DNA from: an uncultured Gammaproteobacteria bacterium
GTDB lineage: Bacteria; Pseudomonadota; Gammaproteobacteria; Eutrophobiales; Eutrophobiaceae
NCBI GenBank assembly: GCA_958295485.1
Contig: OY282354.1
Span: 3,434,042 to 3,498,041 of the forward strand
Length of the DNA: 64,000 bases
Reading direction: 5' to 3'
The notes beneath the pieces were generated by a model, which ran no database searches, was not told where the DNA came from, and saw nothing but the letters and a program-made list of their open reading frames with translations. The position numbers were made by a program, and so were the translations under genes. This document shows positions 1,487-21,306 of the stretch, one piece after another (position 1 is the stretch's first letter; every line of letters begins with the position of its first letter).

Positions 1487-3325
1487 TCAGGCAATACGCA
1501 CCGTGAATTCCAGGTTGCCTAATTGAAGACGGCTGCCATTACCCAGCGGCTGCCGAGCGCCTTGCGCGACCTGTAGGCCGTTCACAATCGTGCCGTTGGT
1601 AGAGCCCATATCCTCAATCATGACCTGTTGCGAAACCAGGAAGAGCCGAAAATGCCGGCGGGATATTTGCTCGTGATTGATGATAAACGTCGCGGTTGAA
1701 GGACTCCGGCCCACTACGGCGCCGCCCGGGTCCACCAGGGACGCGCCCGGGATTTTCAGCGCAATCCGCTCTTTTTGCGGCGTGACGCCTTCGATAAAAA
1801 CATCGGGGGCATCGGCGCGCAGTTGGTCCCGGTCGGAGGCGTCGGACAACTCGGATTGCGCCTGGTCCAAGGCATTGGAGATTTCTTTCTTTTCCTGCTC
1901 CACGCTATGTAGTCGTTTACGTTTGGCGCGCATCACAAAAATGAGTCCAAGCAGTAAAACTCCACCGGCAATCGACGAATAGAGAAGGATTTGTTGCCTG
2001 GCGGCTTCGGCCTCTTGTCTTTCTACCTGCAGGGCCTGCTCTTGTTCCTGTAGGGCCAACTCTTTTTCCTGTTGCGTTTGCTCAAGTCGGCGTTCAGCCT
2101 CTTCCTTTTCCCTGCTCAAGGCTTCCTCTTTACGTTGCGCTTCTTCGGCCGCTGCCCTGGCCCTGGCTTCGGTCTCTTGCCTTTCCGCTTGCAGGGCTTG
2201 CTCTTTTTCCTGTAGGGCCAACTCTTTTTCCTGTTGCGCTTGCTCAAGTCGGCGTTCAGCCTCTTCCTTTTCTCTGCTCAGGGCTTCCTCTTTACGTTGC
2301 GCTTCTTCGGCCACTGCCCTGGCCCTGGCTTCGGCCTCTTCCCTTTCCGCTTGCAACGCCGCTTCCCTTTCTCTGCGCGCTTGTTCCAGTTGTTGCTGCG
2401 TTTCTTCTTCCAGGCTCAGGCATTCGGTCTCCACGACGGGCAGGGAGAGATTTGCCGAGGCCAGAAATCCAGCCAGCCAGGAAGGCGCAAGAGAACCCGC
2501 GCTACCCTGTTCCGTGGGGTCGATTTGACGAAACCCCTTCTTTTGTAACACGTTGACCCCGACCGCCTCGTAGCACCGATTCAACAACGGCGCTCCGACT
2601 GATACTGGTTTGAATAAAGCATTGTGGACAATCAACGGGTATTCACCGCCGGTGGCGGGAAATTGTGTCACTGTCCCGGCAATTGACATAAACCGGTCCG
2701 GGTCTGCCGGCTTGAAATCGACCGCATACAGCGGCGCGGTCGGCTGGAGCGCTGTTTTTGCGAATTTCAATGCAGTCAAGCCGTGCCCATCTTCGGCAAT
2801 CTTGAGCAGCATGATGCCGGTTTTCTCATCTTGTTTGATTCCAGCTGCGGTAAAAACCTGTCCCCTGGAATTCGAGACCAGATACGACGCCCTGGTACGA
2901 AGCGCGCCCGAATAGATCAAAATATGGCCCTGGTCGCTGATACTGAACCCCGGCGTTTGACGGACGCCGGCATCTATCCCGTCTCTTACGATAACCAAGT
3001 GGTTTTTTACTGTCGTAAAACCGGCGGTTGTGTCGTCCGATACGTCGGGGGTATCTGCGGACGGCTCGGCTGTCTCCGGCGGCGTTTCGGTTGCATCCGC
3101 GGGCGGCTCGGTTGCATCCGCGGGCGGCTCGGTTGTCGCCGGCGGCGTAGCGGGCGCAGCCGCAGGCGGCTCGGTTGTCTCTGGCGGCGTCTCGGTTGCA
3201 TCTGCGGGCGGCTCGGTTGTTGCCGGCGGCGTAGCGGGTACAGCCGCAGGTACGTCAGTGTCAGTCAAGCCTGCAGGCGCATAGAAAAGGAAAATGGACA
3301 ACGCAATCACTATAAAGGTATTCAC
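1487..3325 (-). CDS. Degenerate trypsin-like protein with coiled coil, membrane anchor and FHA domain
   Basis: 612 residues with the same plan as the next gene: signal peptide, a Pro/Thr/Glu/Ala-rich repeat region (about 24-95), a trypsin-like fold (about 103-300), a long charged coiled coil (about 305-440), one membrane segment (about 443-463) and a C-terminal FHA domain with GRSPST, SRRHFRLF and GSTNGT. The protease domain looks dead: the His, Asp and Ser positions are occupied near Tyr138, Gly170 and Val243 (PVSVGAPLL instead of GNSGGPL). The coiled coil holds a 54-residue unit duplicated in tandem, which is a 162-bp in-frame duplication. It is likely a pseudoprotease that regulates or scaffolds its active neighbour; this role is inferred. 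Confidence 0.8.
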   Translation of the reverse strand: MNTFIVIALSIFLFYAPAGLTDTDVPAAVPATPPATTEPPADATETPPETTEPPAAAPATPPATTEPPADATEPPADATETPPETAEPSADTPDVSDDTTAGFTTVKNHLVIVRDGIDAGVRQTPGFSISDQGHILIYSGALRTRASYLVSNSRGQVFTAAGIKQDEKTGIMLLKIAEDGHGLTALKFAKTALQPTAPLYAVDFKPADPDRFMSIAGTVTQFPATGGEYPLIVHNALFKPVSVGAPLLNRCYEAVGVNVLQKKGFRQIDPTEQGSAGSLAPSWLAGFLASANLSLPVVETECLSLEEETQQQLEQARREREAALQAEREEAEARARAVAEEAQRKEEALSREKEEAERRLEQAQQEKELALQEKEQALQAERQETEARARAAAEEAQRKEEALSREKEEAERRLEQTQQEKELALQEQEQALQVERQEAEAARQQILLYSSIAGGVLLLGLIFVMRAKRKRLHSVEQEKKEISNALDQAQSELSDASDRDQLRADAPDVFIEGVTPQKERIALKIPGASLVDPGGAVVGRSPSTATFIINHEQISRRHFRLFLVSQQVMIEDMGSTNGTIVNGLQVAQGARQPLGNGSRLQLGNLEFTVRIA

Positions 3326-3348
3326 GACACTCCCCCCACTATTATTGC

Positions 3349-4290
3349 CTACCGGCTACTATTGAATATCTTATTTACCATCCTTGCGAAAACAGACCCC
3401 TGGCGTTTTCTTACCCGGTCAAAAACGTCCTTTTGGATACGAATGTTTTGACCGCCTTCTTTCAAACCTGGCAGTTCAGTCAGCGCTTCCATCTCTGCCA
3501 GCGCCGAATGCAGCGAATGCGCTTCATGGCCGACCCTGTAGGCCAGCGCCGTCGTATTGTCCTGATTTGGCGCCGCCGCGGCCGACACGCGGTCAAGCAA
3601 GGCGCGTACCATCTCTTTTGCATTGCCCTCATGGATTTCGATCTCGGCTGCCAGCGTTTCCCCGGACAAGGTTTCAAGACCATCGCTGGCCAGTAATACC
3701 ACGTCGCCAGCCTTGAGTTGATAGCCATTATCGGCTATCTGAAGCAAAGGAAGGTCTTCGCCGACAAGGGCCGACCGGAGTTGGTGAATCCTGGGATCGT
3801 TCAGGGCTTCTTCCTCGGTCATCCTGCCCAGTTCGACCAACTCTAACAACAACGGCCGCATGGAATGATCTTCATTCAGCCTGTGCAGGCAACCATCCCT
3901 GAACAGCCACAATATGGAATCACCGACGCTTGCCCAATAGAGTTTATGTTCGAGAACCAGCGCCGCTACCAACGTGGAACCCATTTCAGACAAGGCTACA
4001 TCAGATTGCTGTTTCGCCTTGATTGCTTCGTTGGCGGCGTCAATGCCGGCCCTGAGGTTATCCGCTACGCCGGCGGCTGCCTTGTTGAAACCTTCCCAGA
4101 ACGTCTGGACCGCCGTGTCGCTCGCAACGGCTCCCCCGGCATGACCACCCATGCCATCGGCGAGGATAAGCAGCAACCGGTCACCTCCTGCATCGTTGTC
4201 GGCCAACAGGATAATTGAGAAACTGTCTTCCTGGTAATCACGCCCCCCCTGGATTTGATCTCCAGCCACCCATTGTTCGATGGTGTTCAT
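3349..4290 (-). CDS. PP2C-family protein serine/threonine phosphatase
   Basis: 313 residues. PP2C motifs are in order: RDYQEDSF near the N-terminus (metal-binding Asp22), LADGMGGHAGG (Asp45), ASVGDS, LLASDGL and PNQDNTTALAY. These carry the acidic residues that bind two Mn/Mg ions and remove phosphate from Ser/Thr. No membrane segment or signal peptide is visible, so the protein is cytosolic. It lies between two FHA genes, two bases after one and 23 bases before the next, and would erase the phosphothreonine marks that the FHA proteins read. No kinase is visible in the window; one is expected beyond the left edge. Confidence 0.9.
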   Translation of the reverse strand: MNTIEQWVAGDQIQGGRDYQEDSFSIILLADNDAGGDRLLLILADGMGGHAGGAVASDTAVQTFWEGFNKAAAGVADNLRAGIDAANEAIKAKQQSDVALSEMGSTLVAALVLEHKLYWASVGDSILWLFRDGCLHRLNEDHSMRPLLLELVELGRMTEEEALNDPRIHQLRSALVGEDLPLLQIADNGYQLKAGDVVLLASDGLETLSGETLAAEIEIHEGNAKEMVRALLDRVSAAAAPNQDNTTALAYRVGHEAHSLHSALAEMEALTELPGLKEGGQNIRIQKDVFDRVRKRQGSVFARMVNKIFNSSR

Positions 4291-4292
4291 AA

Positions 4293-5003
4293 TTACCTGC
4301 TTTCATACTCTTCCCAATCGAATTGATCACAGCACAGGGGGACAAACAGCAGCAACGTATCTCCGATGGTGATTTTGGAGAACCCTTCGAGTTCAGTCGG
4401 TGTCAGGACAGGGGCGCCTTCCAGGTAAGTCAGATTTTTTCCGACGCCGTGTTGCAGGTAAAACTTCTTGCCCCTGGGGTCATAGGTGATGGTCGAGTGT
4501 CCGTAGCGGGAAATCAGTTCGTCACCAAAGTCTACGCGGATGCGTTCGCCTTGGTCTCGCCCTATCGAGTTCGAACCGTTCCCAATAGTCAGAACGTTTC
4601 CCTTGCCCGGTCCCTGCACTACAACCAACCATCCGACAGGCGGATCATCCATTGCAATATAAGATTCAGGGCGCGCCTCTGCGATTGACGATCCGACGTC
4701 TGCCTGCGCCTTTTTCGCTCCCGGCCGATATACTCTGGTTTTACCATCCCGGTTTGCATTGGCCATGGCAGCGCCTTGCTTCCGGGCGTCCAGCGATGCT
4801 GACCTTGCCAACACGGTCTTGGCCTCATAGCCCGACAGCTGGCCGACATCGGCGCGCTGCCCGTTGCCGGGGCCGCCCGGCGCAGCCGTTGGAGAACGCC
4901 CGGGTACGGTGCGGTCATCCCGTTGAAACTCGTCCCCGAAAGAACTTGCTTTTTTTGTCTTTACTTCAATGATATTTCCATCAGCATCACGTTTTATCGG
5001 CAT
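4293..5003 (-). CDS. FHA-domain protein with disordered N-terminus
   Basis: 236 residues. Residues 1 to about 110 are polar and low in hydrophobics, with TVPGRSPTAAPGGPG and several Thr/Ser sites that could be kinase targets. The C-terminal half is an FHA domain with a variant core: IGRDQGERIRV, then SRYGHSTI in place of the usual SRxHA, then GVGKNLTYLEG in place of SxNGT. The start is firm because AGGAGG lies six bases before the ATG. No membrane segment is present. In type VI and other kinase/PP2C/FHA systems such proteins act as phospho-switch adaptors; here that role is inferred from the neighbours. Confidence 0.82.
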   Translation of the reverse strand: MPIKRDADGNIIEVKTKKASSFGDEFQRDDRTVPGRSPTAAPGGPGNGQRADVGQLSGYEAKTVLARSASLDARKQGAAMANANRDGKTRVYRPGAKKAQADVGSSIAEARPESYIAMDDPPVGWLVVVQGPGKGNVLTIGNGSNSIGRDQGERIRVDFGDELISRYGHSTITYDPRGKKFYLQHGVGKNLTYLEGAPVLTPTELEGFSKITIGDTLLLFVPLCCDQFDWEEYESR

Positions 5004-5253
5004 GATTCCTCCTATGGGCGTCTGTCGAACTTAATATCATCGGCAGAATAACATAAATCCAAACTGCGGTTTTCCGCATCCTGGTTCAATAACATTATGA
5101 GACAGGCACAGGGACAGGCCCCATGACGGCAAGAGCAGATAACCTCCCGTCACAGGTTAGTAGGGGCAACCCCCCCGTGATTGCCCATCAATAGGGCAGG
5201 CGCGGGGCCTGCCCCTACGGATGTTGGGGTAAACGCATACTTTCAGGTTGCTG
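5004..5253. other. Intergenic stretch with a GC-rich inverted repeat
   Basis: This 250-base gap splits the FHA operon. It contains an inverted repeat at 5160-5218 with arms GTAGGGGCA and TGCCCCTAC enclosing a C-run, AT-containing centre and G-run. The sequence resembles the 52-bp units at 48.6-49.3 kb (GGGGCAA then CCCCGCGCCTGCCC). No gene was seen. It may form a transcript hairpin, but no T-tract marks a terminator. Confidence 0.6.
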
Positions 5254-6009
5254 TCAGGTTTCATATAGTCGGTTAATCAGGTTATCCAGGCAATATTGCC
5301 CAACCTTATTTAATGAGGCTTCTTCCATGCCTTGAACAACATGCAACGCAAACATCAACACGGCTGACTGCAACAGCGCCAGCAGGGTTGTATAAAAGGC
5401 CACGCCAAGGCTTTGGGTAAGTTGTTTCAGCAAGGCGGGGTCCTGGTAGTTTTGGGCGCTGCCCGCGTCACTGAGCGCCAATGCGATGCCGACGACGGTG
5501 CCGATGAAACCCAGGGTGGGAATGAGCCAGACAATGTATCTCAAGGCATTATATTTCAGTTCAATCTCGTGTTGAAACAATTCCAGGCTGGAATTGAACA
5601 TGCTGTTTGCCTTATCGATTGCGCCACTGACTTGAAATTGCAGGATACAGCGGGAAAGCAGCCGTTGCATGAAGCAGGGTTCCTCCGCCATTGTCCCCTT
5701 CACGCGCTTGTACAGACTTCCCAAGTCCTGTTTGCGCAGCAAGGTCGTATCATCTTCGGGCAGCAGGTTCTTGTGAATTTGCAGTATTTCCTTGTTGGTC
5801 TGAATATAGCGCACCACCAACTCGCCCGCCCCGATGAAGAATACGATCCACATGATGTTTTGCACCGTAACGGGGTACGGCAGGGACCGGGAGTTCCGGT
5901 CTAATAGAAAATCCGCGAAAAATCCCTCGGGTAAAACCGCGCTCATCAAGCCGACGAATATAATCCCCGCTAATATCGCGCCTGTGAAAATAGTCATTCT
6001 CTGGTTCAT
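5254..6009 (-). CDS. MotA/TolQ/ExbB-family proton-channel protein
   Basis: 251 residues with four predicted membrane segments, at about 5-27, 45-68, 156-180 and 198-222. The segment LIPTLGFIGTVVGIALAL matches the conserved MotA/TolQ/ExbB core, where the third helix lines the proton path. Family members form rings that use proton or sodium flow to move a MotB/TolR/ExbD-type partner. The likely partner is the protein that begins at position 106. The presence of such a motor pair in an FHA/PP2C operon suggests that the module couples phosphorylation signals to work at the envelope. What is moved is unknown. Confidence 0.82.
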   Translation of the reverse strand: MNQRMTIFTGAILAGIIFVGLMSAVLPEGFFADFLLDRNSRSLPYPVTVQNIMWIVFFIGAGELVVRYIQTNKEILQIHKNLLPEDDTTLLRKQDLGSLYKRVKGTMAEEPCFMQRLLSRCILQFQVSGAIDKANSMFNSSLELFQHEIELKYNALRYIVWLIPTLGFIGTVVGIALALSDAGSAQNYQDPALLKQLTQSLGVAFYTTLLALLQSAVLMFALHVVQGMEEASLNKVGQYCLDNLINRLYET

Positions 6010-6020
6010 GATGCCCCGCT

Positions 6021-6422
6021 CTAATCAGTCTCGTCTAATGCAATCGGTTCGCCCGTGTACGGGTTGCGCGCCACCCCCTGGCTGGCATCCAGTTGCTCTT
6101 CCTGCTTGACGTTTGACGGGCCGGCATCTCCTTCACTCCTGTTAACCTCTAAGCGGGAGATTTCGGCCAGCAGGCGTTGAACACTGACTTCGACCTCGCC
6201 AAATCGAACCCGCCCCCCGGCGCTGACAAAATCCTGGGTTATCTTGCGCCATTGACCATTTTCATCGATGAAAGTGCCGTTCGTGCTGGCGCAGTCCGTA
6301 ATGTAAATCTGCCCGTCCGGCACAGGGATCAATTCCGCGTGTCTGCGCGACACCGTCTCATGTTGCAAGGTAATTGCAACGGAGGCATCACGCCCAACGG
6401 TGTAACAGGGAACTTTGGACAT
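6021..6422 (-). CDS. Small FHA-domain protein, first gene of the signalling operon
   Basis: 133 residues, almost entirely one FHA domain. GRDASVAITL, SRRHAELI and CASTNGTFI give the canonical Arg, Ser-x-x-His and Asn-Gly phosphothreonine-binding residues. The C-terminal 40 residues are polar (LEVNRSEGDAGPSNVKQEEQ). It sits at the head of the leftward operon, 11 bases before the TolQ-like gene, with a 249-base divergent region facing the MBL hydrolase gene. It is probably a cytosolic adaptor. Confidence 0.85.
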   Translation of the reverse strand: MSKVPCYTVGRDASVAITLQHETVSRRHAELIPVPDGQIYITDCASTNGTFIDENGQWRKITQDFVSAGGRVRFGEVEVSVQRLLAEISRLEVNRSEGDAGPSNVKQEEQLDASQGVARNPYTGEPIALDETD

Positions 6423-6671
6423 AGCTTCTTATTTCGGAAACAAAACTTTTTCTGTCTTGTCAATTATTTGTCTTACGGCCCTTGCCTGCCATTGTGGTAA
6501 CCTGCCGCTTGCTGATTAATTTGCGCATGTCTCACCTCAAGGCATTACTGAACATAGCCATATATCGAGTGTAATATGATGGCAGGGAGGAAACAACGGT
6601 TGTTGCAGGGAGCAGGCAGGGAAAATATACTCTCACTTGGGAGACACTTTTAATAATAGAGGGCAACAGAG

Positions 6672-7622
6672 ATGGTGAAAGAATTTGCTTCCAAGGCGGA
6701 CCTTGGGGAAAAACAGGTGACATTCAGCCGGTTGGCGGATAATGCCTATGCCTACACGGCGGAGGGCGACCCGAATAGCGGGGTGATTGTCGGTGATGAT
6801 GGCGTCATGGTGATAGACACGCAGGCCACGCCGCTGATGGCTGGGCGGGTGCTGGAAAAAATCCGCTCGGTCACGGATAAGCCCGTTAAATACGTGGTAA
6901 TGAGCCACTATCACGCGGTGCGCGTGTTAGGGGCCAGCGCCTATGAGCCGGAGCACATTATTGCCAGTCGGGATACTTACGACCTGATCGTCGAGCGGGG
7001 TGAGCAGGATTGGCAGTCTGAATTCGAACGGTTTCCGAGGTTGTTCAATGGTTACGAAACCATCCCCGGATTGACCTGGCCGACCATTGCCTTCCAGGGA
7101 GAAATGACCTTATGGATGGGGAAGACGGAAATCAGGATCATGCAATTGGGCCGGGGGCATACCAAGGGCGACACCGTCGTCTGGCTGCCGCAAGAGCGGG
7201 TGTTGTACAGCGGCGACCTGGTTGAGTACGGGGCAACGCCCTATACCGGCGATGCCTACCTGCTGGACTGGCCGGCCACCCTGGACAATATCACGGCGCT
7301 GGACCCGGCTGCCGTCGTCCCGGGCCGGGGGGACGCCCTGACGACCCCTGAGACGATTAAAGCCGGCATCGGGGGAACCCGCGCGTTTATTACGGCCCTG
7401 TATGAGTCGGTCAAGGCCGGGAGGGCTGCCGGGAAGGATTTGAAGGAAATTTACCGGGCAACCGCCGCTGCGCTGAGGCCGGATTTCGGCGATTGGGTGA
7501 TCTTCGATCATTGCCTGCCCTTTGACGTCGCCCGCGCCTATGACATCGCCGGTGGGATGGCTGATCCGCAAATCTGGACGGCCGAACGGGACGCCGAGAT
7601 GTGGGAAGCGCTGGAAGGGTGA
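6672..7622 (+). CDS. MBL-fold metallo-hydrolase with altered metal motif
   Basis: 316 residues of metallo-beta-lactamase fold. The usual HxHxDH signature reads SHYHAVRVLGA, so the Asp and third His of the motif are Val and Arg. Later motifs are kept: GRGHTKGDTVVWLP, LYSGDLVEYG and the terminal VPGRGD region. This suggests loss or rearrangement of one metal site. I recall the same HYHAVRVLG form in related proteobacterial proteins, so it may be a family trait and not decay. No signal peptide is visible. It is followed 65 bases later by a DUF2783 gene, a pairing that suggests one transcript. Substrate unknown. Confidence 0.82.
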   Translation: MVKEFASKADLGEKQVTFSRLADNAYAYTAEGDPNSGVIVGDDGVMVIDTQATPLMAGRVLEKIRSVTDKPVKYVVMSHYHAVRVLGASAYEPEHIIASRDTYDLIVERGEQDWQSEFERFPRLFNGYETIPGLTWPTIAFQGEMTLWMGKTEIRIMQLGRGHTKGDTVVWLPQERVLYSGDLVEYGATPYTGDAYLLDWPATLDNITALDPAAVVPGRGDALTTPETIKAGIGGTRAFITALYESVKAGRAAGKDLKEIYRATAAALRPDFGDWVIFDHCLPFDVARAYDIAGGMADPQIWTAERDAEMWEALEG

Positions 7623-7641
7623 ACGTCGATGCGGACAGACC

Positions 7642-7667
7642 CCCCCTGACCTCCCTTTGTCAGGGGG
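7642..7667. repeat. Short palindrome of the CCCCCTGAC...GTCAGGGGG type
   Basis: A nine-base perfect stem (7642-7650 with 7659-7667) lies between the MBL gene and the DUF2783 gene. Close relatives of the same palindrome occur in each unit of the array at 54.7-55.3 kb and at about 60225. No T-tract follows, so it is better read as a dispersed palindromic repeat than as an intrinsic terminator. Confidence 0.55.
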
Positions 7668-7687
7668 AGAACCCAGGGTGATCATCA

Positions 7688-7891
7688 ATGGCGGGTAAAC
7701 TGCGGACTGAACCCGGCGTCGACAACCCGGATGATTTTTATGCCAGGCTGATCGACCTGCACGAAGGCTTATCGTCCGAGGAAAGCCATAAAATCAATGC
7801 CAAGGTGATCTTGATGTTGGCCAACCACGTCGGCGACACGGAGGTGTTATACGAAGTGCTGGAATACGTGCGGGAAAAGGGAACGGGTTAG
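7688..7891 (+). CDS. DUF2783 domain protein
   Basis: 67 residues. The pattern NPDDFYARLIDLHEGLSSEE followed by LMLANHVGD matches the small DUF2783 family, whose function is unknown and whose members are usually 60-75 residues. It is acidic and soluble. It follows the MBL hydrolase gene on the same strand and ends convergently with the cytochrome gene, overlapping it by four bases. The two plus-strand genes probably form a small transcription unit. Confidence 0.75.
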   Translation: MAGKLRTEPGVDNPDDFYARLIDLHEGLSSEESHKINAKVILMLANHVGDTEVLYEVLEYVREKGTG

Positions 7892-8319
7892 TAACCGCCG
7901 ATGACTTTCTCGAGCAAGGCGCGCCGGGTCTTCCCCGGGTCGACCACGGGGGTTTGACGGTATTCGCCGACTTCCGCCGCCGTATAGGGCTTGAAATCCG
8001 GCTTCAGTTGAGCGGCATTCATGGTATAGAGGATCCAATTCAACACGTCCGCCAATTCCTGGTCGGAGATGGGCGCGGAAGATGCGCCGGGCGCTTGGGC
8101 CAGAAATGCGCGCGCGGCGGGATGCTGCGCGAATTTACCCAGGTACTCGCTTAAATCCGGGACGCTGCCCGGGGCGCCCTTGCCGTTCACCTGGTGACAA
8201 CCGGCGCAATTGAGGAGGTAGTTTATTTCCGCGCGTTGCGCAGAGGCAGGGTCCATTTGTTCAACGGCAGCGCAATCAAACACGAAGAACGCGCCAATAT
8301 AAAACAGGGCCGCCCGCAT
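7888..8319 (-). CDS. Periplasmic mono-haem cytochrome c of the amine dehydrogenase operon
   Basis: 143 residues from the ATG at 8317-8319; a longer frame reaches back to 8448, but that part lies inside the light-chain gene. A signal peptide (ALFYIGAFFVFDC) precedes a single haem-binding motif, CAGCH, at about 38-42. It lies seven bases after the light-chain stop, at the end of the operon. The likely role is to accept electrons from the TTQ amine dehydrogenase and pass them to the respiratory chain, in place of the copper protein amicyanin used in some methylotrophs. It is too small and has too few haems to be the dihaem enzyme MauG. Confidence 0.85.
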   Translation of the reverse strand: MRAALFYIGAFFVFDCAAVEQMDPASAQRAEINYLLNCAGCHQVNGKGAPGSVPDLSEYLGKFAQHPAARAFLAQAPGASSAPISDQELADVLNWILYTMNAAQLKPDFKPYTAAEVGEYRQTPVVDPGKTRRALLEKVIGGY

Positions 8320-8326
8320 GAGATAA

Positions 8327-8884
8327 TCAACTTTTTTCGGTGGCAATGCCGAGGATGATCGACGTGGTGCAGTGATAGATGGTGCTGTCCATGCCGACGC
8401 ACCAGTTGATGTCGTTATTGGAAAAGGCCCGGTAGGGGGGAATATCACCCAGGTTATTGTTGCAGAGGCAACGGCTGCAACTGGTTTTGCCGCAGCAATC
8501 GTTATAGGAAACGATGTAGTTCAAACCGTCCGCGGGGTTTTTACAGGTGCCTATCCAGGTCATGGGCGACATTTCCGTGCCGGGCGGACAGGACACGTGG
8601 GTGCCGCCGCAACAACTACAGAGAAAACCGTCAATGGCGCAGTACCGCCAATAATCACAGGAAGCCGGGTCGCCCGGGTCCGCAACGGGGTTGCCACTGG
8701 TTTGCGGGGCCACGCCGTGATAACCGCTGCCGCCTTCACCACCGGCGGCGCGGGCCACCGGCAACAGGGGAAGCGAGGCGCCGCCGGCCATGGCCAGTCC
8801 TATTTTCCTTAATAAATTGCGCCGTGACGAACTTTTAGCGACTCGCCGGGAAAATTTCTCGGTGATTTTATCCAGCCAATACAT
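8327..8884 (-). CDS. mauA: TTQ amine dehydrogenase light chain (MauA/AauA family)
   Basis: 185 residues. An N-terminal twin-arginine-like leader (SRRNLLRKIG then a hydrophobic stretch) is followed by a Cys-rich mature domain. The two tryptophans that are crosslinked to tryptophylquinone in this family align with Trp110 (MTWIGTC) and Trp161 (INWCVG), 51 residues apart as in known chains. The catalytic Asp aligns with Asp129 (YNDCCG). The disulfide-rich frame YWRYCAIDGFLCSCCGG is intact. The enzyme deaminates primary amines to aldehydes in the periplasm. The sequence does not decide between methylamine and aromatic or other amines. Confidence 0.92.
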   Translation of the reverse strand: MYWLDKITEKFSRRVAKSSSRRNLLRKIGLAMAGGASLPLLPVARAAGGEGGSGYHGVAPQTSGNPVADPGDPASCDYWRYCAIDGFLCSCCGGTHVSCPPGTEMSPMTWIGTCKNPADGLNYIVSYNDCCGKTSCSRCLCNNNLGDIPPYRAFSNNDINWCVGMDSTIYHCTTSIILGIATEKS

Positions 8885-9520
8885 TTAACTTGCTCCTTCT
8901 TCGGCGTGGGTTGCGCTGCTATCGGGATGATACTTTTTCACGTATTCCTGAATGGAAGCGACCCCCCGCTCTTTTGCCTCGAATAAACTTTCCAGGTGTT
9001 CCCTGGAATTGATTATCCCCATGCTGACGACTTTTCCCTGCTCATCGGTCAAGACCGCATAGGGCAGTTTCCCCACCCCGTAACTGCGACCTAACAGTTC
9101 GGACAGCACGTAATCGAACTGCGACAATTTATACTCTTCGATAAACTCCCGGTGCGGCCCGGCCTCGCCATCGCTGGCAAGCACGATGTCCACCCAGTCA
9201 CTTTCTTCTTTCCGCGCCGATGCCAAGACCGGCAACAGGGTTTTACACACCGGGCAATCCGGCGCAAGAAAAAACAGCAGTGTGCTCCTGGCCGTTTCCC
9301 GCGCGCCGCCGACGTGAATTTTCTTGTCTTCGATCGTCAGTAAATCCAGCTCGGGAGCGGCATCCCCTGGGCGCAAGGTTTGATTCACCATCAATGCGCC
9401 GGCCGGCGCCACCCGTTCATACAGGACGCCGATTTGTCTTACCAGCGCAAACACCATGACGCCCAGGATCACCACCACGACCCAGAGCGCCAGGTTGGAA
9501 ACGATCAAGGCTTCAAGCAT
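8885..9520 (-). CDS. mauD: MauD, thioredoxin-like maturation factor
   Basis: 211 residues. One N-terminal membrane anchor (about 8-28) holds a periplasmic thioredoxin-like domain with active-site motif DCPVC (Cys89 and Cys92). MauD is needed for the six disulfides of the light chain, and mutants in known systems lack light chain. The gene abuts the light-chain gene, and its start overlaps the MauE gene by eight bases. Length and position match the mauE-mauD-mauA order of known clusters. Confidence 0.92.
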   Translation of the reverse strand: MLEALIVSNLALWVVVVILGVMVFALVRQIGVLYERVAPAGALMVNQTLRPGDAAPELDLLTIEDKKIHVGGARETARSTLLFFLAPDCPVCKTLLPVLASARKEESDWVDIVLASDGEAGPHREFIEEYKLSQFDYVLSELLGRSYGVGKLPYAVLTDEQGKVVSMGIINSREHLESLFEAKERGVASIQEYVKKYHPDSSATHAEEGAS

Positions 9521-10064
9521 TGTATTCTCTCAGCGTTTTCAACAACTCTTTATTGACTAATAATTGATTGACGATGTTATAGAACAAGCAACCCAGCATG
9601 GTTGCAAGGATAATGACCGTCCAATCGAACCAGAGCAGTGGCCTTTGCTGAACCTGGCAACCCGCGACAAAGCTGAGGAAAAGCAGCGCCCCGTTCCGCA
9701 GGATCAGCCATTCGCTTAGGGTTTGTTTTTGCGCGGGGCCGCCGCAACCACAATCGATGTTGCGTCTGCCGCGGAGTAAATTCACGCCGATTGCCGCTAT
9801 ATAAACGCTTAACAACAGGCCTGCCGACAGCGCCGCGGGCTTGGCCGTGGCTGGTATCAACAAGGCAATCCCGGTCATGATTTCAACCACGGGGATTAAA
9901 TAAATACACTGCCTGTTCAATCTTTCCGGCAGGATTTTGTAATTATTCAGGGTGGCCGCAAATTCCCCTGGGGCCTGGCATTTGTGAAAACCAGCCAGGA
10001 CAAACACGTAACTGAGTATCAGCGCTGCGATGAGATTGATAGCCGGGTCGATGAGCGTGATCAT
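9513..10064 (-). CDS. mauE: MauE, membrane maturation factor for amine dehydrogenase
   Basis: 183 residues from the ATG at 10062-10064, which overlaps the TGA of the large-subunit gene (ATGA); a longer frame starting at 10124 lies within that gene. Four to five hydrophobic segments and the motif NIDCGCGG identify the MauE/DoxX-like membrane family. It acts with MauD in light-chain disulfide formation or export. The tight overlap on both sides indicates coupled translation. Confidence 0.9.
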   Translation of the reverse strand: MITLIDPAINLIAALILSYVFVLAGFHKCQAPGEFAATLNNYKILPERLNRQCIYLIPVVEIMTGIALLIPATAKPAALSAGLLLSVYIAAIGVNLLRGRRNIDCGCGGPAQKQTLSEWLILRNGALLFLSFVAGCQVQQRPLLWFDWTVIILATMLGCLFYNIVNQLLVNKELLKTLREYNA

Positions 10065-11209
10065 TTCGAGGCGTGGATGATCATGGGCATCTCGAAGGCC
10101 TTGCCGCCGATGAGACGCAGCCACTCGCCGCTGTCGGCGGAGTAAACGTCCAACTCCATGTTGCCGTTAGTCACGACCAGGTAAGATTGTTCGCCCTGGG
10201 TGACCTCGATCGATACCCCCCATTCTTTCAAGACCACGCGGTTGAGGCGTTTTTTCGTTTTAACGTCATAGACCCAGACCTCGCTGCCACCGCCCTTGTG
10301 GGAGCCATTCGTCCCGTCGGGGTGCATCAGCGTAAACAGCCGGTGACTGACTTCATGGGCGGTCGCGATTTGCCAGCCGCCGGGACGCCAGTTTTCCGCC
10401 TTGTCAGCGTCGTTCAATAACGACCAGGCGGCCAATATCCGGGGTTTCGCGCCGGTCATATCCACCGGTTGCGCCATGCCCTTGAACGACGGAAAATAGT
10501 AAACCCCCCCGATAACCGCCGGCTTGGCGAAAACGGGATCGACGTCCGCATCGAAAAAGGCCTGGGTGCGCGCCTGTTTTTCGACTTTGCCGTTCTCGTC
10601 CAGGTGGGAAACCAGCATGGTGTTATCCCCGCAAAGACTGCCGAAGCTGCGTTGCCCGGATGGGTAGATCATCGTGCAACCGGCTATAGATACTTCCGAC
10701 AGGATTTCACGTCGCTCAATGTCGATAACGCTTACGGAGGCAGCCGGGGTGAAATTGTACAGCAGCAATAATTTCTCATTGTCCAGAAACTGTAGCGTGT
10801 TCTTGTGGGTAACGATCATGCCGCGCTTGTTGCCGGGCAAAACGATCTCGCCGATGAACGCCAGGTTGGCCTTGTCATAAATGCTGATCAAATCCGTTCT
10901 CTCGCCGCGCAGGCGCCGGGAGTGAACCGTTTCCGCCACGTACAGTTCCGGGCGGGTTGAGGCGGCAAGAAATGAGGGAAAATGGGCCGAGGGAATGGAA
11001 CCCTTGTAATTCCGGTTTTGCGCCGCCACGTCAACCACTACTACCTTGGCGTCATTAAGCGCAAAAAAATTGGTGTCATGGGCGTACACCCAGGTATCGG
11101 GGTAACTCGCCGGCAGAGTCTCCACTTCGAGGATCGTCTCCACCGGCAGTTCAGCGAACGACCTGGTGAAGACGAAAACGAGCAACAGGCCGAATATGCC
11201 GCGGTTCAT
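10061..11209 (-). CDS. mauB: Amine dehydrogenase large (heavy) subunit
   Basis: 382 residues with a signal peptide (GLLLVFVFTRSFA) and repeated beta-propeller blades with WVYAHD, LYVAETVHSRRLRGERTDLISIYD and EVWVYDVKTKKRL. The heavy subunit of TTQ amine dehydrogenases is a seven-bladed propeller that forms an A2B2 complex with the light chain. The gene order large subunit-MauE-MauD-light chain-cytochrome recalls the aromatic amine dehydrogenase cluster of Alcaligenes. It lies 26 bases after a TonB receptor gene and may share its transcript. Confidence 0.9.
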   Translation of the reverse strand: MNRGIFGLLLVFVFTRSFAELPVETILEVETLPASYPDTWVYAHDTNFFALNDAKVVVVDVAAQNRNYKGSIPSAHFPSFLAASTRPELYVAETVHSRRLRGERTDLISIYDKANLAFIGEIVLPGNKRGMIVTHKNTLQFLDNEKLLLLYNFTPAASVSVIDIERREILSEVSIAGCTMIYPSGQRSFGSLCGDNTMLVSHLDENGKVEKQARTQAFFDADVDPVFAKPAVIGGVYYFPSFKGMAQPVDMTGAKPRILAAWSLLNDADKAENWRPGGWQIATAHEVSHRLFTLMHPDGTNGSHKGGGSEVWVYDVKTKKRLNRVVLKEWGVSIEVTQGEQSYLVVTNGNMELDVYSADSGEWLRLIGGKAFEMPMIIHASK

Positions 11210-11235
11210 ATTTGTCTCCGGTTTAAAGCGCGTCG

Positions 11236-13581
11236 TCAGAAATTATAGGACACACTGCCGCCAACCCAACGCGGCCGACCGTAATATTCTTCGATCCATC
11301 CCAGCACGGCGGCAATATCAAAGGACTGGACAACGTATCCTTCGTCAGTGATATTTTCAGCAAATACGGCGACCTCCCATTTATCGTCCGTCGATGACCA
11401 CGAAAGCCTGGCATTGGCCACATGATAGCCGTTTTCGGTAACGGCATCCGCCCTCGTGACGGAATGGTAGTGCCTGGATCGGTAATGCGCATCACCCTGT
11501 ATGGCCATGACGCCGTTAAGGGCCGGCCATTGATAACGGATCAAGCCGTTCAAGTTCCACTTGGGCGATTGGATCGACGTGGTTTTCGTGCCGTCAACCA
11601 ACGTAATGTCCATATCGTTCCAGGAAACACCGAAAGCCAGGTCCAGACCTTCCGCCAAAGTAGTGAATAATTCGGCTTCGAGCCCCTTGCTTTTGGCATC
11701 CGGGGCGCTGACCACGTTCGTAGCGAGACCGACGATGGTAAAGGCCTGAAAATCCTTGTAGTCGTTGTAGTAGCCGGAGACGTTAAGCCGGGCCAGGCCG
11801 TCAAGCAAGGAGGACTTGAAACCAACCTCGAAGGCATTCAACTCTTCTTCTCCGAATGAGAATTGGGCATCGAACTCATCCAGCGACGTCGAGATCGTGT
11901 CCGGTTTTGCCAATACCGCTATCGGGTTGAGAGGCGCGTTGAACCCGCCCCCTTTTACTCCCCTGTTCCAACTGGCGTAAGCCAGCAAGTCATCATTGGG
12001 CCTCCAGTCAAGCTCGACCCTGGCTGACCACAGACCCTTATCATACTCGCCGCTGAAATCGCCCCTCGGCAGACCAAGAAACTCGCCGGTAGTGATTATA
12101 ACGTTCGGGTTGCCATTGCGCTCAACGCTGCCGTCATTGGGGAACAAGACGACATTGCTGACGTAATCGAATTCAACCTTTTCGTCTATCCAGCGAAAAC
12201 CGCCAATCAGGGTGAACTGGTCACTGAGCTCATACTCCACCTGTCCGAACAACGACCATGAGTCCTTTTCCTGCTCGTATGGATTGTCAAGACCGATAAA
12301 AGCTCCCCCATCGACCCCAAAAAGCCCTGCCGCAATACCTGCGCTGATTTCGTTAAACCCCAAATCTACAAAGTTCTGTATCCCTCTGGGGTTGCCGCCG
12401 GCGCCTGAGGGGTCCGCCCCAAGTCCCGGTATTTCCGCGCCATTGGCATCGGCGATGTCGATATTCAGGTAATAGAACCCGGCAACCCAACGAACCTTGT
12501 CGGCCTCTCCACTCAGGCGGATCTCGCTGGACCACTGCTCGGCGTCCGTGGCAAGGAAAAAGTTGAAATCACTGAACGGGCTGGCGTCGGAATCTTCAAT
12601 GTAATCACGCTCAACGCCCTGGCGATCCACGATAACGGTCAACAGCTTGTCGCCCAGGTCCCATTTGAGGGTACCGCTTACTCCCCAGGTCTCCAGGTCA
12701 TTGTGACCCAACTTGTCGTAGTCGCCGGCGAAGTTGTCACCGTCGTCGTCGCAATAACCGTTGAAGTTGGTGTATCGGCTGCAATCATCTTCCTTGACGC
12801 CGTTGCCGTCCTCATCAAGTGAACCGCTGACGTTCTCGAAGAAGCCGGTACGGATTTGCTGCAAGGAATAACGACCATTCAGGAGAAAGGAGAAATCCTC
12901 CGCCGGCTCAAACAACAACTGGACCCGGCCGGCATAATCATTGGCGTTGTTGAGGTCATTGCCGGGGTCCAAACGGTTTTCCACGTAGCCGCTGTTATGA
13001 TGCGTCGAAATGGATAAGCGGCCTGACAGCGCCTCGGTCAAACCCCCCGTGACCGCGCCCTGGAACTTCACCTGGTCATGCTCGCCATAAGTTACCTGGC
13101 CGTAACCGCCGAATTCCTGGCTGGGCTTGTTGGTCACAAAATGGGCCAGGCCGCCGGTGGCGTTGCGGCCGTACAAGGTGCCTTGGGGGCCGCGCAGGAT
13201 CTCCACGCGCTCCATGTCGAACAACATGAAACCGGCGCCGGACATCTGCGAGATATACACCTCATCCATATAGAGGGAAACCGGGCTTTCCTGGTTGGCG
13301 ACAAAGTCACTGTTGGCGGCGCCGCGAATCGCCAGCGCATAGTTGGCTTCGCCGTTGGGCTGAATTGTATGAACGCCGGGCGCCAGCGCGGTGATCTGCT
13401 GGGCGTTCGCGTAGCCTAATTGACGCATCTGCTCGCCGGAGAAAGCGGTGATGGCGATACCCACGTCCTGGATGTTCTGTTCACGTTTTTGCGCGGTGAC
13501 GATAACCTCTTCCAACACCTGGGCGTTTACCAACCCGGCGAACGCAAACGTCAACAGGATGATTCCGATTTTCTTCAGCAT
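11236..13581 (-). CDS. TonB-dependent receptor (amine operon)
   Basis: 781 residues. A signal peptide is followed by a TonB-box-like segment (EEVIVTAQKR), a plug domain with VEILRGPQGTLYGRNATGG, and a 22-strand barrel ending in an aromatic C-terminus (GGSVSYNF), as expected for outer-membrane insertion. The family imports siderophores, vitamins, sugars or other ligands using TonB energy. Position just upstream of the amine dehydrogenase genes on the same strand suggests uptake of the substrate or of an aromatic compound. A TetR gene lies divergently. The ligand cannot be read from the sequence. Confidence 0.92.
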   Translation of the reverse strand: MLKKIGIILLTFAFAGLVNAQVLEEVIVTAQKREQNIQDVGIAITAFSGEQMRQLGYANAQQITALAPGVHTIQPNGEANYALAIRGAANSDFVANQESPVSLYMDEVYISQMSGAGFMLFDMERVEILRGPQGTLYGRNATGGLAHFVTNKPSQEFGGYGQVTYGEHDQVKFQGAVTGGLTEALSGRLSISTHHNSGYVENRLDPGNDLNNANDYAGRVQLLFEPAEDFSFLLNGRYSLQQIRTGFFENVSGSLDEDGNGVKEDDCSRYTNFNGYCDDDGDNFAGDYDKLGHNDLETWGVSGTLKWDLGDKLLTVIVDRQGVERDYIEDSDASPFSDFNFFLATDAEQWSSEIRLSGEADKVRWVAGFYYLNIDIADANGAEIPGLGADPSGAGGNPRGIQNFVDLGFNEISAGIAAGLFGVDGGAFIGLDNPYEQEKDSWSLFGQVEYELSDQFTLIGGFRWIDEKVEFDYVSNVVLFPNDGSVERNGNPNVIITTGEFLGLPRGDFSGEYDKGLWSARVELDWRPNDDLLAYASWNRGVKGGGFNAPLNPIAVLAKPDTISTSLDEFDAQFSFGEEELNAFEVGFKSSLLDGLARLNVSGYYNDYKDFQAFTIVGLATNVVSAPDAKSKGLEAELFTTLAEGLDLAFGVSWNDMDITLVDGTKTTSIQSPKWNLNGLIRYQWPALNGVMAIQGDAHYRSRHYHSVTRADAVTENGYHVANARLSWSSTDDKWEVAVFAENITDEGYVVQSFDIAAVLGWIEEYYGRPRWVGGSVSYNF

Positions 13582-13771
13582 TTGACCCCTCCCGTGGAAC
13601 GGTATAATTTAAGGAAGCTCATAAACACCACCTATTTTAGGACAAATGTACAATTCAGGTCAAGGACGCTATATAAAAATTGGCGCCGAGCATGTATTTC
13701 AGCATACGAAGAGTATATAGCTAAAACCAATTGTCTCTTAGGGCTGGATACCACAAAATTATCGAAATATT

Positions 13772-13806
13772 TTGACATTTGAAGTGATACATTGTTAGAA
13801 AACAAT
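13772..13806 (+). promoter_or_regulatory. Putative promoter and operator before the TetR gene
   Basis: TTGACA at 13772-13777 fits a -35 box. Seventeen bases later the sequence runs into a perfect six-base palindrome, ATTGTT-agaa-AACAAT (13791-13806), that ends eight bases before the TetR start codon. TetR proteins often repress themselves from such sites, and a divergent receptor promoter would lie next to it. The -10 box is weak (TTAGAA), so this is a suggestion. Confidence 0.35.
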
Positions 13807-13814
13807 AAATCCCC

Positions 13815-14495
13815 ATGCTGATTCGACAGCGCAAATCCTTGAACCGGTCAGGAACGGCCATCCAGGAGAAGGGAGTATCCCGCTTAATCAGCATATTGAA
13901 CGCGGCCCGGGAGGTGTTCATGGAATCGGGCTATGCCGCCTTGACCATGCGTAAAGTCGCCGGTCGCGCCGGCATCTCTATCGGCAATCTCAATTATTAT
14001 TACCGCGCCAAGGAAGATTTATTGCGCGACCTGCTGGAATACGTCATCAATCAGTACCTGGAAGAATTCGACCGCCAGCGACAAATGGCCGGGCATTCTC
14101 CCGAAAAACAATTGGAAGCCGTGCTCAAATTCTGGATTGACGACCTGGGTACCCCGGAAACCACCGTTTTCTTCCCGGAACTTTGGGCGCTGGGTAATCA
14201 CGATCCCTATATCGCCGACTTGGTGGACGAGCTTTATGCCAAGGCCAGGTTGCCCTTGAACGAATTGATCCCACAGATAAATCCAACGCTGACAAAAAAA
14301 GAAACCGAACAAATTGCGCTTTACATGTGCGCATCCATGGAAGGCCTGACTGTTTTCGTGGGGAACGGCAAAACCTGGACGAACCAGATAAAGGAAATAA
14401 AACGGATTACTATCAGAAATTTCATGGAACTGGTTAAAAATACGAAAGGAAAACGAAAAGCAAAAAGTGAGAAGTGTGAAAAGGAGAAGAAATGA
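13815..14495 (+). CDS. TetR-family transcriptional regulator
   Basis: 226 residues. The N-terminal helix-turn-helix (about 43-65, TMRKVAGRAGISIGNLNYYY) is typical of TetR; the remainder is an all-helical ligand-binding domain. The C-terminus is a lysine-rich tail (NTKGKRKAKSEKCEKEKK) encoded by a purine-rich repeat and probably not part of the fold. It is divergent from the TonB receptor/amine dehydrogenase unit, which is its most likely target. The inducer may be an amine or its aldehyde. Confidence 0.88.
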   Translation: MLIRQRKSLNRSGTAIQEKGVSRLISILNAAREVFMESGYAALTMRKVAGRAGISIGNLNYYYRAKEDLLRDLLEYVINQYLEEFDRQRQMAGHSPEKQLEAVLKFWIDDLGTPETTVFFPELWALGNHDPYIADLVDELYAKARLPLNELIPQINPTLTKKETEQIALYMCASMEGLTVFVGNGKTWTNQIKEIKRITIRNFMELVKNTKGKRKAKSEKCEKEKK

Positions 14496-14695
14496 TTCCA
14501 TACTTCTCACTTCACACTTCAAACTTTACCCCTTTATCCGCATTATGCGCAGCCCTGTTGTGGTCGACGGTTGCAACTGCCTTTGTTAGCGGGAGCTCCT
14601 GTGGCAATCCATACATGTTTGACATGAATCCCTATGATAGCGCCCGCTACGACCCGGCGCGATCTTCGCAACCACTGGTGCAATATCCGGGTTAA
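14492..14695 (+). CDS. Small exported protein, doubtful
   Basis: 67 codons, starting with ATGA overlap on the TetR stop and preceded by AAGGAG at a good distance. It has a hydrophobic stretch (ALCAALLWSTVATAFVSG) like a signal peptide, then a short polar tail with FDMNPYDSARYDPARSS. The first codons fall in a near-repeat of GAAGTGTGAA/TTCACACTTC, which could be non-coding. It ends convergently on the thiolase gene. I do not recognise a family. Confidence 0.35.
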   Translation: MIPYFSLHTSNFTPLSALCAALLWSTVATAFVSGSSCGNPYMFDMNPYDSARYDPARSSQPLVQYPG

Positions 14696-15873
14696 ATCAA
14701 TTCCAGGGCAACTGCCGTGGCCTCGCCGCCGCCTATGCATAAACTTGCCACGCCGCGTTTCAATCCACGGTCTTTCAGGGCCGCGATCAGCGTCACCATT
14801 ATTCTTGCCCCCGATGCGCCGACAGGATGACCCAGGGCGCAGGCGCCGCCGTTTACGTTTAACTTGTCGTGGGGGATCTGCAAATCTGCCATGGCCGCCA
14901 TGGCAACGACTGCAAAGGCTTCATTCACTTCAAACAAATCGACGTCAGCCACCGTCCAGCCGACTTTTTCCAGCACTTTTTTAATCGCTCCCACCGGCGC
15001 GGTGGTAAACCAGGCCGGCTCCTGCGCATGGCTGCTATGCCCATGGATAACAGCCAATGGACTTGAACCACGGGCTTCGGCGTCAGCCTGCTTGAGTAAT
15101 ATCACCGCCGCCGCGCCGTCAGAGATAGAGCTGGAATTCGCCGCCGTCACGCTGCCGCCCTTGGCGAATACCGGTCTCAGTGTTGGAATTTTTTCCATAT
15201 CGGCCTTGCCCGGTTGCTCATCGGTATCCACCGTGATTTCACCCTTGCGCGAGCGGACTACCACCGGAATGATTTCCTCGTTGAATTTTCCTTCCTTGAT
15301 GGCAATCTGCGCTCGCGTCAGCGACTCGATGGCATAGTCATCCTGCGCTTCCCGGGAGAAGTCGTACTTGTTCGCGCAATCTTCCGCAAACGCGCCCATC
15401 AACTTGCCCTTGTCATAGGCGTCTTCCAGGCCGTCGAAAAACATGTGATCGACCATCTCCCCATGTCCCAGGCGTAAACCGCCACGGGCCTTGGGCACCA
15501 GGTAAGGGGCATTGGTCATGCTCTCCATGCCGCCGGCGGCGACAATGCGCGCCGAACCGGCCCGGATGGCGTCAAACCCCAGCATCACCGCCTTCATGGC
15601 CGAGCCACACATTTTATTGACGGTGGTGCAGCCCGTGGCGAGTGGTATGCCGGCGCCGATTGACGCCTGGCGCGCCGGCGCCTGTCCCAAGCCCGCCGGC
15701 AAGACACAGCCCATGATGGTTTCATCTACTTCCGGCGGCGCTATGTTCGCCCTTTCCAATGCTGCCTTGATGGCCGCGGCGCCCAACTCCGGCGCTTGCA
15801 AGGCTGCCAATGCCCCCTGTAATCCACCCTGGGGTGTCCGGGCCGCGCCGGCAATAACAATCGGTTCATTCAT
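14692..15873 (-). CDS. Acetyl-CoA C-acetyltransferase (thiolase II)
   Basis: 393 residues, the usual length. The catalytic residues of biosynthetic thiolases are present: Cys89 (NKMCGSAMKA), His349 (CALGHPVGASG) and Cys379 (SLCIGGGEA), along with NEAF at 317-320. It condenses two acetyl-CoA or cleaves acetoacetyl-CoA. No beta-oxidation partner is adjacent, so its exact pathway (ketone body, polyhydroxyalkanoate or fatty-acid breakdown) is open. It may serve the carbon skeletons released by amine oxidation. Confidence 0.93.
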   Translation of the reverse strand: MNEPIVIAGAARTPQGGLQGALAALQAPELGAAAIKAALERANIAPPEVDETIMGCVLPAGLGQAPARQASIGAGIPLATGCTTVNKMCGSAMKAVMLGFDAIRAGSARIVAAGGMESMTNAPYLVPKARGGLRLGHGEMVDHMFFDGLEDAYDKGKLMGAFAEDCANKYDFSREAQDDYAIESLTRAQIAIKEGKFNEEIIPVVVRSRKGEITVDTDEQPGKADMEKIPTLRPVFAKGGSVTAANSSSISDGAAAVILLKQADAEARGSSPLAVIHGHSSHAQEPAWFTTAPVGAIKKVLEKVGWTVADVDLFEVNEAFAVVAMAAMADLQIPHDKLNVNGGACALGHPVGASGARIMVTLIAALKDRGLKRGVASLCIGGGEATAVALELI

Positions 15874-16303
15874 TTAATCAACCTCCTCAAGATTTTATGT
15901 GTTTGACTCTTAATCCGGTTTTATCCCGATAATAACCTGATTCTGTTAAATCTGCCAACCACCGGGGGAAATTTGAAGTGGGAAGGGTGAAGATCGCGCC
16001 CCGTCATTCTGAGCCGCAGGCAAAGAATCCATGTTGAACAAAGGCATAGATTCTTCGTCGCTACGCGCCTCAGAATGGCGGGGTTCTTGCAGACAGTCTG
16101 TCGGACTTGGCTCGCATATCTCACCGATGGATGCGATGAGTCATAAAGTGGGAGGTTCCCGCTGTTTGTCGCAAGTGGGTTTGGGGACTGCTGGGGTGTG
16201 ACTGAAACGGGACATGGTGGTTTTTCAATCTGATATAATGAAATGGGTCGGCCCTGATTGCGGGCAACGACAAAATTCATCGACAGGAGCTGATTGCGGA
16301 TTT
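15874..16303. other. Divergent intergenic region with MITE-like inverted repeat
   Basis: The gap between the thiolase and agmatinase genes. It holds an imperfect inverted repeat at 15998-16084: the left arm has CCCCGTCATTCTGAG and AAGAATCCATG, and the right arm is its complement (CATAGATTCTTCG and CTCAGAATGGCGGGG). This motif resembles a widespread intergenic repeat type. The promoters of both genes should lie here, but I see no clear boxes. Confidence 0.5.
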
Positions 16304-17239: not shown

Positions 17240-17260
17240 GTTATCGTGACTGCTCGCCCG

Positions 17261-18547: not shown

Positions 18548-18548
18548 T

Positions 18549-21268: not shown

Positions 21269-21306
21269 GTTTGCCGGCGCCGCGGGCGGCGCAACTGTGA
21301 AAGACC

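Follow-up and report, generated by a model that had tools for sequence, protein, structure and literature searches.

Genes of the TTQ amine dehydrogenase operon

The 64,000-nucleotide stretch of DNA analyzed here (the window) lies on contig OY282354.1 of an uncultured gammaproteobacterium of the family Eutrophobiaceae (assembly GCA_958295485.1), and its list of open reading frames (ORFs) includes five tightly packed minus-strand genes, at window positions 7888-11209, for a tryptophan tryptophylquinone (TTQ) amine dehydrogenase and associated proteins. In order they encode the heavy (large) chain (10061..11209; PF06433, 141.2 bits against a cut-off of 21), the membrane protein MauE (9513..10124; PF07291, 100 bits), the thioredoxin-like accessory protein MauD (8885..9520; TIGR02661, 184.5 bits, slightly below the cut-off of 188.6), the precursor of the TTQ-bearing light (small) chain (8327..8884; PF02975, 164.6 bits), and a periplasmic mono-haem c-type cytochrome of 143 amino acids (7888..8319; PF00034, 32 bits, with a single CxxCH), which we call CytX and tentatively propose as a TTQ-maturation factor. 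MauE probably starts at the ATG at 10064, as judged from its ORF, and CytX probably starts at the ATG at 8319, 8 bases past the light-chain stop codon, rather than at the GTG at 8448 given in the ORF list. A first-pass annotation of this DNA had recognized the same gene set, and its gene order and family assignments agree with our matches.

Both chains find their best match among PDB structures in the aromatic amine dehydrogenase (AADH) of Alcaligenes faecalis, the light chain with an E value of 7e-49 and the heavy chain, which is only distantly similar, with an E value of 1.2e-58 (202 bits). Light-chain residues W110, W161, D129 and D85 fall on conserved positions when aligned with Paracoccus MauA and relatives, and the first three (codons 8555..8557, 8402..8404 and 8498..8500, respectively, all on the minus strand) are invariant in the light-chain alignment. 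We take W110 and W161 to be the counterparts of Trp57 and Trp108, the TTQ pair of methylamine dehydrogenase (MADH), and D129 that of its catalytic Asp76; D85 and D129 are presumably the active-site Asp residues. The earlier claim that both TTQ tryptophans and the catalytic Asp are present is thereby borne out, as far as these assignments allow. Against the MADH equivalog models the light chain scores 179.8 bits (TIGR02659, cut-off 196.85) and the heavy chain 144.4 bits, far under the cut-off of 454.45 (TIGR02658); since the light chain falls below and the heavy chain widely below these cut-offs, AADH-type is the right label. Thus, to judge from sequence (PF06433 and PF02975 domains with the Trp pair and the Asp, as expected in the AADH/MADH superfamily), the five genes are a real AADH-type TTQ operon.

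The A. faecalis aauBEDA genes have the same order of heavy chain, E, D and light chain, and Chistoserdov is said to have found in 2001 that the aau cluster has no MauG, the dihaem protein that completes TTQ in MADH, which agrees with a remark in the first-pass annotation. The MADH cluster mauFBEDACJGMN of Paracoccus and Methylobacterium shares the order of heavy chain, MauE, MauD and light chain with the window, but it also has MauF, MauJ, MauG, NapG/H-like genes and amicyanin, none of which is in the window, and it has no CytX. To our knowledge, how TTQ is formed in AADH-type enzymes without MauG is an open question.

MauG-domain proteins in the source genome and in other carriers

The reported absence of a dihaem MauG from the operon holds, since no CCP_MauG (PF03150) protein is encoded anywhere in the window, and neither mauF, mauJ nor mauG is present in the 20-kb part of it (positions 2001-22000) around the operon. 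The source genome (97.9% complete, 6 contigs) encodes exactly one PF03150 protein, at C1:1970209, about 1.46 Mb from the operon. It is a 649-amino-acid SCO1-MauG fusion with two CxxCH motifs, and its gene adjoins a methanethiol oxidase (SBP56/mtoX)-like gene, named by eye, rather than lying in a TTQ operon; the pair is at L019:9649-13327 of the same contig. Aligned with MauG, the fusion retains the axial Tyr that corresponds to Tyr294, whereas its residue in the column of the inter-haem Trp93 is His, as in all seven SCO1-MauG fusions that were aligned. The inter-haem Trp of MauG is needed for TTQ biosynthesis, and BthA has Ser at this position, according to PMC6405878.

It might be argued that this fusion, as the genome's sole CCP_MauG protein and one with two haem motifs and the Tyr294 equivalent, matures the TTQ enzymes of its host in trans. 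We regard this as very improbable: the fusion differs from MauG in its SCO1 part, its SBP56-like neighbor and its His; an mtoX-SCO1-mauG arrangement, fused forms included, has been published for methanethiol oxidase (PMC5739008); and many genomes with a TTQ light chain have no PF03150 protein (below). The first-pass annotation had staked its reading on there being no mauG elsewhere in the genome. A CCP_MauG-domain gene is indeed present, but what was found is a mauG in letter only. A search of the genome with a haem-motif pattern was useless for this purpose, giving 172 + 137 matches compared with 186 + 150 in a reversed control.

PF03150 proteins are absent from 27 of 70 genomes that carry a TTQ light chain (24 of 61 in a first set and 3 of 9 further genomes). 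The first set comprised the genomes of 49 of the 80 related loci less that of L047 (48 in all), the source genome and 12 other carriers; the 80 loci are the best of 577 relatives from a scan of genome contigs and are biased towards the window's operon type. Two genomes with marginal light-chain matches and no CytX, G662 (about 25 bits) and G692 (22 bits, with internal stops), were excluded from the 70-genome count and from the 22-genome count given below. Among the 27 are two single-contig genomes rated 100% complete (G463 and G589), and all 27 have the operon cytochrome CytX. Culturable carriers without a CCP_MauG protein include Sphingopyxis witflariensis DSM 14551 and Novosphingobium nitrogenifigens DSM 19370. 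As a control, the same PF03150 search recovers MauG in three MADH plasmid records. In the AADH-type loci searched there was no match to a MauG/CCP profile, and the only such matches were in the MADH-type loci L134, L135, L156 and L169. Since 27 of 70 carriers have no CCP_MauG protein, this clade cannot in general depend on MauG to finish TTQ, and TTQ maturation in the present operon would proceed without it. The first-pass suggestion that some other factor may complete TTQ is sound to this extent, but it overlooked a candidate within the operon itself, CytX.

Distribution of CytX

The 80 related loci share a core of heavy chain, MauE, MauD, light chain and cytochrome, often accompanied by a TetR gene and a TonB receptor. 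Their cytochromes are of two kinds, CytX, to which the window's protein belongs, and CytY, which has a GVM-type Met loop that CytX lacks. CytX is present at 80 bits or more in 74 of these best 80 loci. In genome samples drawn independently of CytX, the gene turns up essentially only in carriers of a TTQ light chain. In a class-level sample of 369 genomes, 13 have the light chain and 10 have CytX, all 10 being among the 13 (Fisher p 2.5e-17, kinship ignored); the three carriers without CytX (G070, G312 and G333) all have MauF/MauJ-type clusters. In a phylum-level sample of 398 genomes there are 12 CytX matches, 11 of them in light-chain carriers; the twelfth (G666, 43 bits) was rejected as a case of CytX without a light chain, being an ordinary Met-loop cytochrome. 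Ten CytX matches were inspected, eight fetched for their CytX match alone and two at known loci, and in 10 of 10 the gene directly follows the light chain or the light chain and CytY. Over both samples, 19 of 22 light-chain genomes have CytX instead of MauG, which makes the MauG-less type the prevailing one among the genomes sampled.

Across 122 loci, 106 have CytX, 6 have MauF/MauJ/MauG, 10 have neither and none has both. Of the six MauF-type rows, L134, L135 and L156 have MauG adjoining the light chain, so the exclusivity is one between CytX and the MauF/MauJ set. These six rows form one clade of the light-chain tree (SH-aLRT 100); the exclusivity is therefore a single evolutionary event, and the Fisher values overstate independence. 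CytX is found within 3.5 kb of 97 of the 100 light chains that have MauE and MauD nearby and no MauF/MauJ, and the three loci without it are a tandem copy (L028), one at a contig end (L053) and L035. The other cytochromes of the 97 loci are variable: 48 also have CytY, 12 have a two-haem c4-like protein and 37 have neither. CytY was rejected as a maturation factor: it is an ordinary Met cytochrome, and only about every second operon has it.

In the 9-kb flanks of the 80 related loci no constant redox gene was found besides MauE, MauD and the cytochromes; AMP-ligase, aldehyde dehydrogenase, TetR and TonB receptor genes recur there but are not universal. This bears on the idea that a chromosomal factor outside the operon and unrelated to PF03150, for example a flavoprotein monooxygenase, completes TTQ. 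Cysteine tryptophylquinone systems use the flavoproteins LodB, GoxB and QhpG, and in MADH the first of the hydroxylations is believed to proceed by autocatalysis (both from PMC7876137), and for these two reasons such a third factor is conceivable. We nevertheless consider it unlikely, given the flanks just described and the fact that the distribution expected of it is already filled by CytX.

Sequence and predicted fold of CytX

CytX was compared over an alignment of 106 of 107 rows, the dropped row being L157, a remnant from Sphaerotilus with no complete CxxCH. The CxxCH haem motif (CAGCH in the window, 8194..8208, minus strand) is invariant. The segment from a conserved Arg to a conserved Asn (R58-N82) is 25 residues long in 106 of 106 CytX and 42-44 residues long in CytY; the Met-ligand loop is deleted in every CytX, and the axial Met is kept in 54 of 54 sister CytY. 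A conserved V-P-G turn (A-P-G in the window's protein, 8086..8094, minus strand) occupies the site at which the axial-Met loop lies in cytochrome c552 and CytY. Outside CxxCH no Met, His, Lys or Cys column reaches 60% in the 106 proteins, the highest being a Met at 57% in a VPxM stretch before the deleted loop. A diverged subgroup at L194-L198 has LPN for VPG and a conserved M-C-T stretch; these proteins are still without the Met loop and are still encoded after a TTQ light chain.

The closest PDB relative of CytX, in sequence and in fold, is cytochrome c552 of Thermus thermophilus (1c52), whose axial-Met loop CytX lacks. The CytX profile aligns with it (E 1.7e-21) in two pieces, which are separated by a gap between chain residues 51 and 72, whereas the corresponding CytY alignment spans this stretch, GVM included. 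An AlphaFold (AF2) model of CytX (pLDDT 93.2) has 1c52 as its best structural match, with Z 10.8 and a root-mean-square deviation of 2.8 over 109 residues. CytX thus has CxxCH and the predicted fold of a class I cytochrome c, but not the axial Met (GVM loop) of c552-type carriers. It also lacks the marks of MauG, having one CxxCH and no PF03150 match; no MauG-type protein is among the structural matches listed for the model, which is not evidence of absence. The 48 CytX members compared with family databases fall into no NCBIfam family and match in Pfam only generic cytochrome c (PF00034 or PF13442).

The first-pass annotation had noted that the only cytochrome of the operon has one CxxCH motif and had passed it over as a factor. 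The motif count is correct, but CytX, by its distribution and the deletion of its Met-ligand loop, is the foremost candidate for the factor that is missing.

Possible roles of CytX

We favor, at somewhat less than even confidence, the reading that CytX is the oxidant that replaces MauG in TTQ maturation in the AADH-type operon. MauE and MauD, to go by their families, would assist the periplasmic folding of the light chain with its six disulfides. The ancestor of CytX would have been a cytochrome c552 with His/Met ligation, and deletion of the Met loop would have left a haem without a conserved sixth ligand, whose open site probably binds O2 or H2O2. CytX could then draw electrons from the tryptophans of the precursor, in much the same way as MauG with its open, high-spin haem, and perhaps exchange electrons with the His/Met cytochrome CytY or another carrier. 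The five-coordinate haem, the oxidant chemistry and the contact with the light chain are what we infer from the loop deletion and the gene pattern. On this model MauG and CytX are alike in being periplasmic c-haem proteins dedicated to a TTQ enzyme, presumably both with an open haem site, and they differ in that MauG has two haems and the CCP_MauG fold, and CytX one haem and the c552 fold.

The chief alternative is that AADH-type enzymes have in CytX their dedicated physiological electron acceptor, a counterpart of amicyanin, with TTQ made by some trans-acting factor or partly by autocatalysis, as is thought for the first step in MADH (above). Several observations fit this and so count against a maturase. 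Amicyanin, an electron acceptor, fills the slot after the light chain in the Paracoccus and Methylobacterium MADH clusters, so position favors an acceptor role for CytX as well; its nearest fold is that of an electron carrier, the electron-transfer cytochrome c552; one acceptor per enzyme type would give an identical co-occurrence; and a cytochrome that has lost its Met may still transfer electrons. On the other side, the axial Met is gone from all 106 CytX and retained by all 54 neighboring CytY, and the carriers differ among operons (CytY, c4-like or none) while CytX is constant. In addition, azurin is the known acceptor of the Alcaligenes AADH. Because the carrier slot varies while CytX does not, and because the ligand is lost, we lean to maturation and give the acceptor role a smaller but substantial probability, perhaps that of one case in three.

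Further points weigh against CytX as a maturase whatever its alternative. A single c-haem would have to do alone the chemistry for which MauG requires two haems. A missing Met is not a proven open site, since the sixth position might be taken by Tyr, Arg or a partner protein; a Met occurs somewhere in the R58-N82 segment of 17 of 106 CytX and a His in 8 of 106, in no common column. At L035, MauE and MauD are encoded without CytX, although CytX is present in the same assembly at L036. The CytX and MauF/MauJ types part at one branch of the light-chain tree and hence in one evolutionary event. Finally, the case for a maturase is one of gene distribution, sequence and predicted structure.

If CytX does mature TTQ, a single c-type haem would carry out radical tryptophan chemistry that has long been associated with a dihaem bis-Fe(IV) enzyme. 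The present survey singles out one small protein as the candidate in the MauG-less type. A broader form of the proposal, which we put forward with slightly more reserve, is that CytX constitutes a family, not named before, of mono-haem TTQ synthases, derived from a c552 carrier by Met-loop deletion, that finishes most of the sampled TTQ enzymes, with dihaem MauG a minority solution restricted to the MADH branch. Among the titles and abstract openings listed for the open-licence literature on AADH, MauG, TTQ biosynthesis and aauBEDA, none puts forward a cytochrome as TTQ finisher, though an earlier mention is possible.

Other TTQ loci

The source genome has three TTQ light-chain loci rather than one. 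The second, L021, has heavy chain, light chain and CytX but no MauE or MauD; the third (L020:7631-11015, on G000:C1) has heavy and light chains but lacks its own MauE, MauD and cytochrome. An ORF that reads as a Rieske-type oxygenase follows the light chain of L020 and overlaps its end. Seven such bare loci, with neither MauE/MauD nor CytX, occur in six genomes, each of which has CytX and MauE elsewhere, a pattern like that of maturation factors acting in trans, which we count in favor of the maturation role.

The MauF-type clusters L169-L171 possibly have another MauG variant or a replacement for it. In L169 the neighboring dihaem protein has Met in place of Tyr294, in L170 no dihaem or MauG gene is present in the stretch available, and in L171 the contig ends at the light chain. 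A gene for a seven-haem cytochrome is found in all three of these class-sample clusters (L169:1585-2700, L170:5120-6610 and L171:1270-2220). On a plasmid of Thermomicrobium roseum (L137) several diverged light-chain-like ORFs lie in one stretch near MauE/MauD-like genes; neither CytX nor MauG is present there. The Sphaerotilus remnant dropped from the CytX alignment belongs to a decayed TTQ operon on a plasmid of Sphaerotilus sulfidivorans (L157:9001-10022), with a cut light chain and no heavy chain.

Neighboring genes

Upstream of the heavy chain are a TonB-dependent receptor gene (11236..13581, minus strand) and a TetR-type regulator gene (13815..14495, plus strand). Both are recurrent neighbors in the 80 related loci, the receptor in 65 by one count and 57 by clustering, and the regulator in 53 and 47, respectively. 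On the other side the operon adjoins a plus-strand gene of the metallo-beta-lactamase fold (6672-7622), whose nearest models are those of a "quinoprotein relay system", matched below their cut-offs; members of its family are also close to the related operons in L024, L045, L077, L157 and L168. Beyond it (122-6422, minus strand) are ORFs that by eye resemble FHA-domain, PP2C-phosphatase and trypsin-like proteins, together with a MotA/TolQ-like gene. The ORFs at 14692-21268, read by eye as a thiolase, an agmatinase-like protein, a DadA-like oxidase, a class-III aminotransferase and a glutamine-synthetase-like protein, look like functions of amine or polyamine breakdown and so offer a hint of the substrate.

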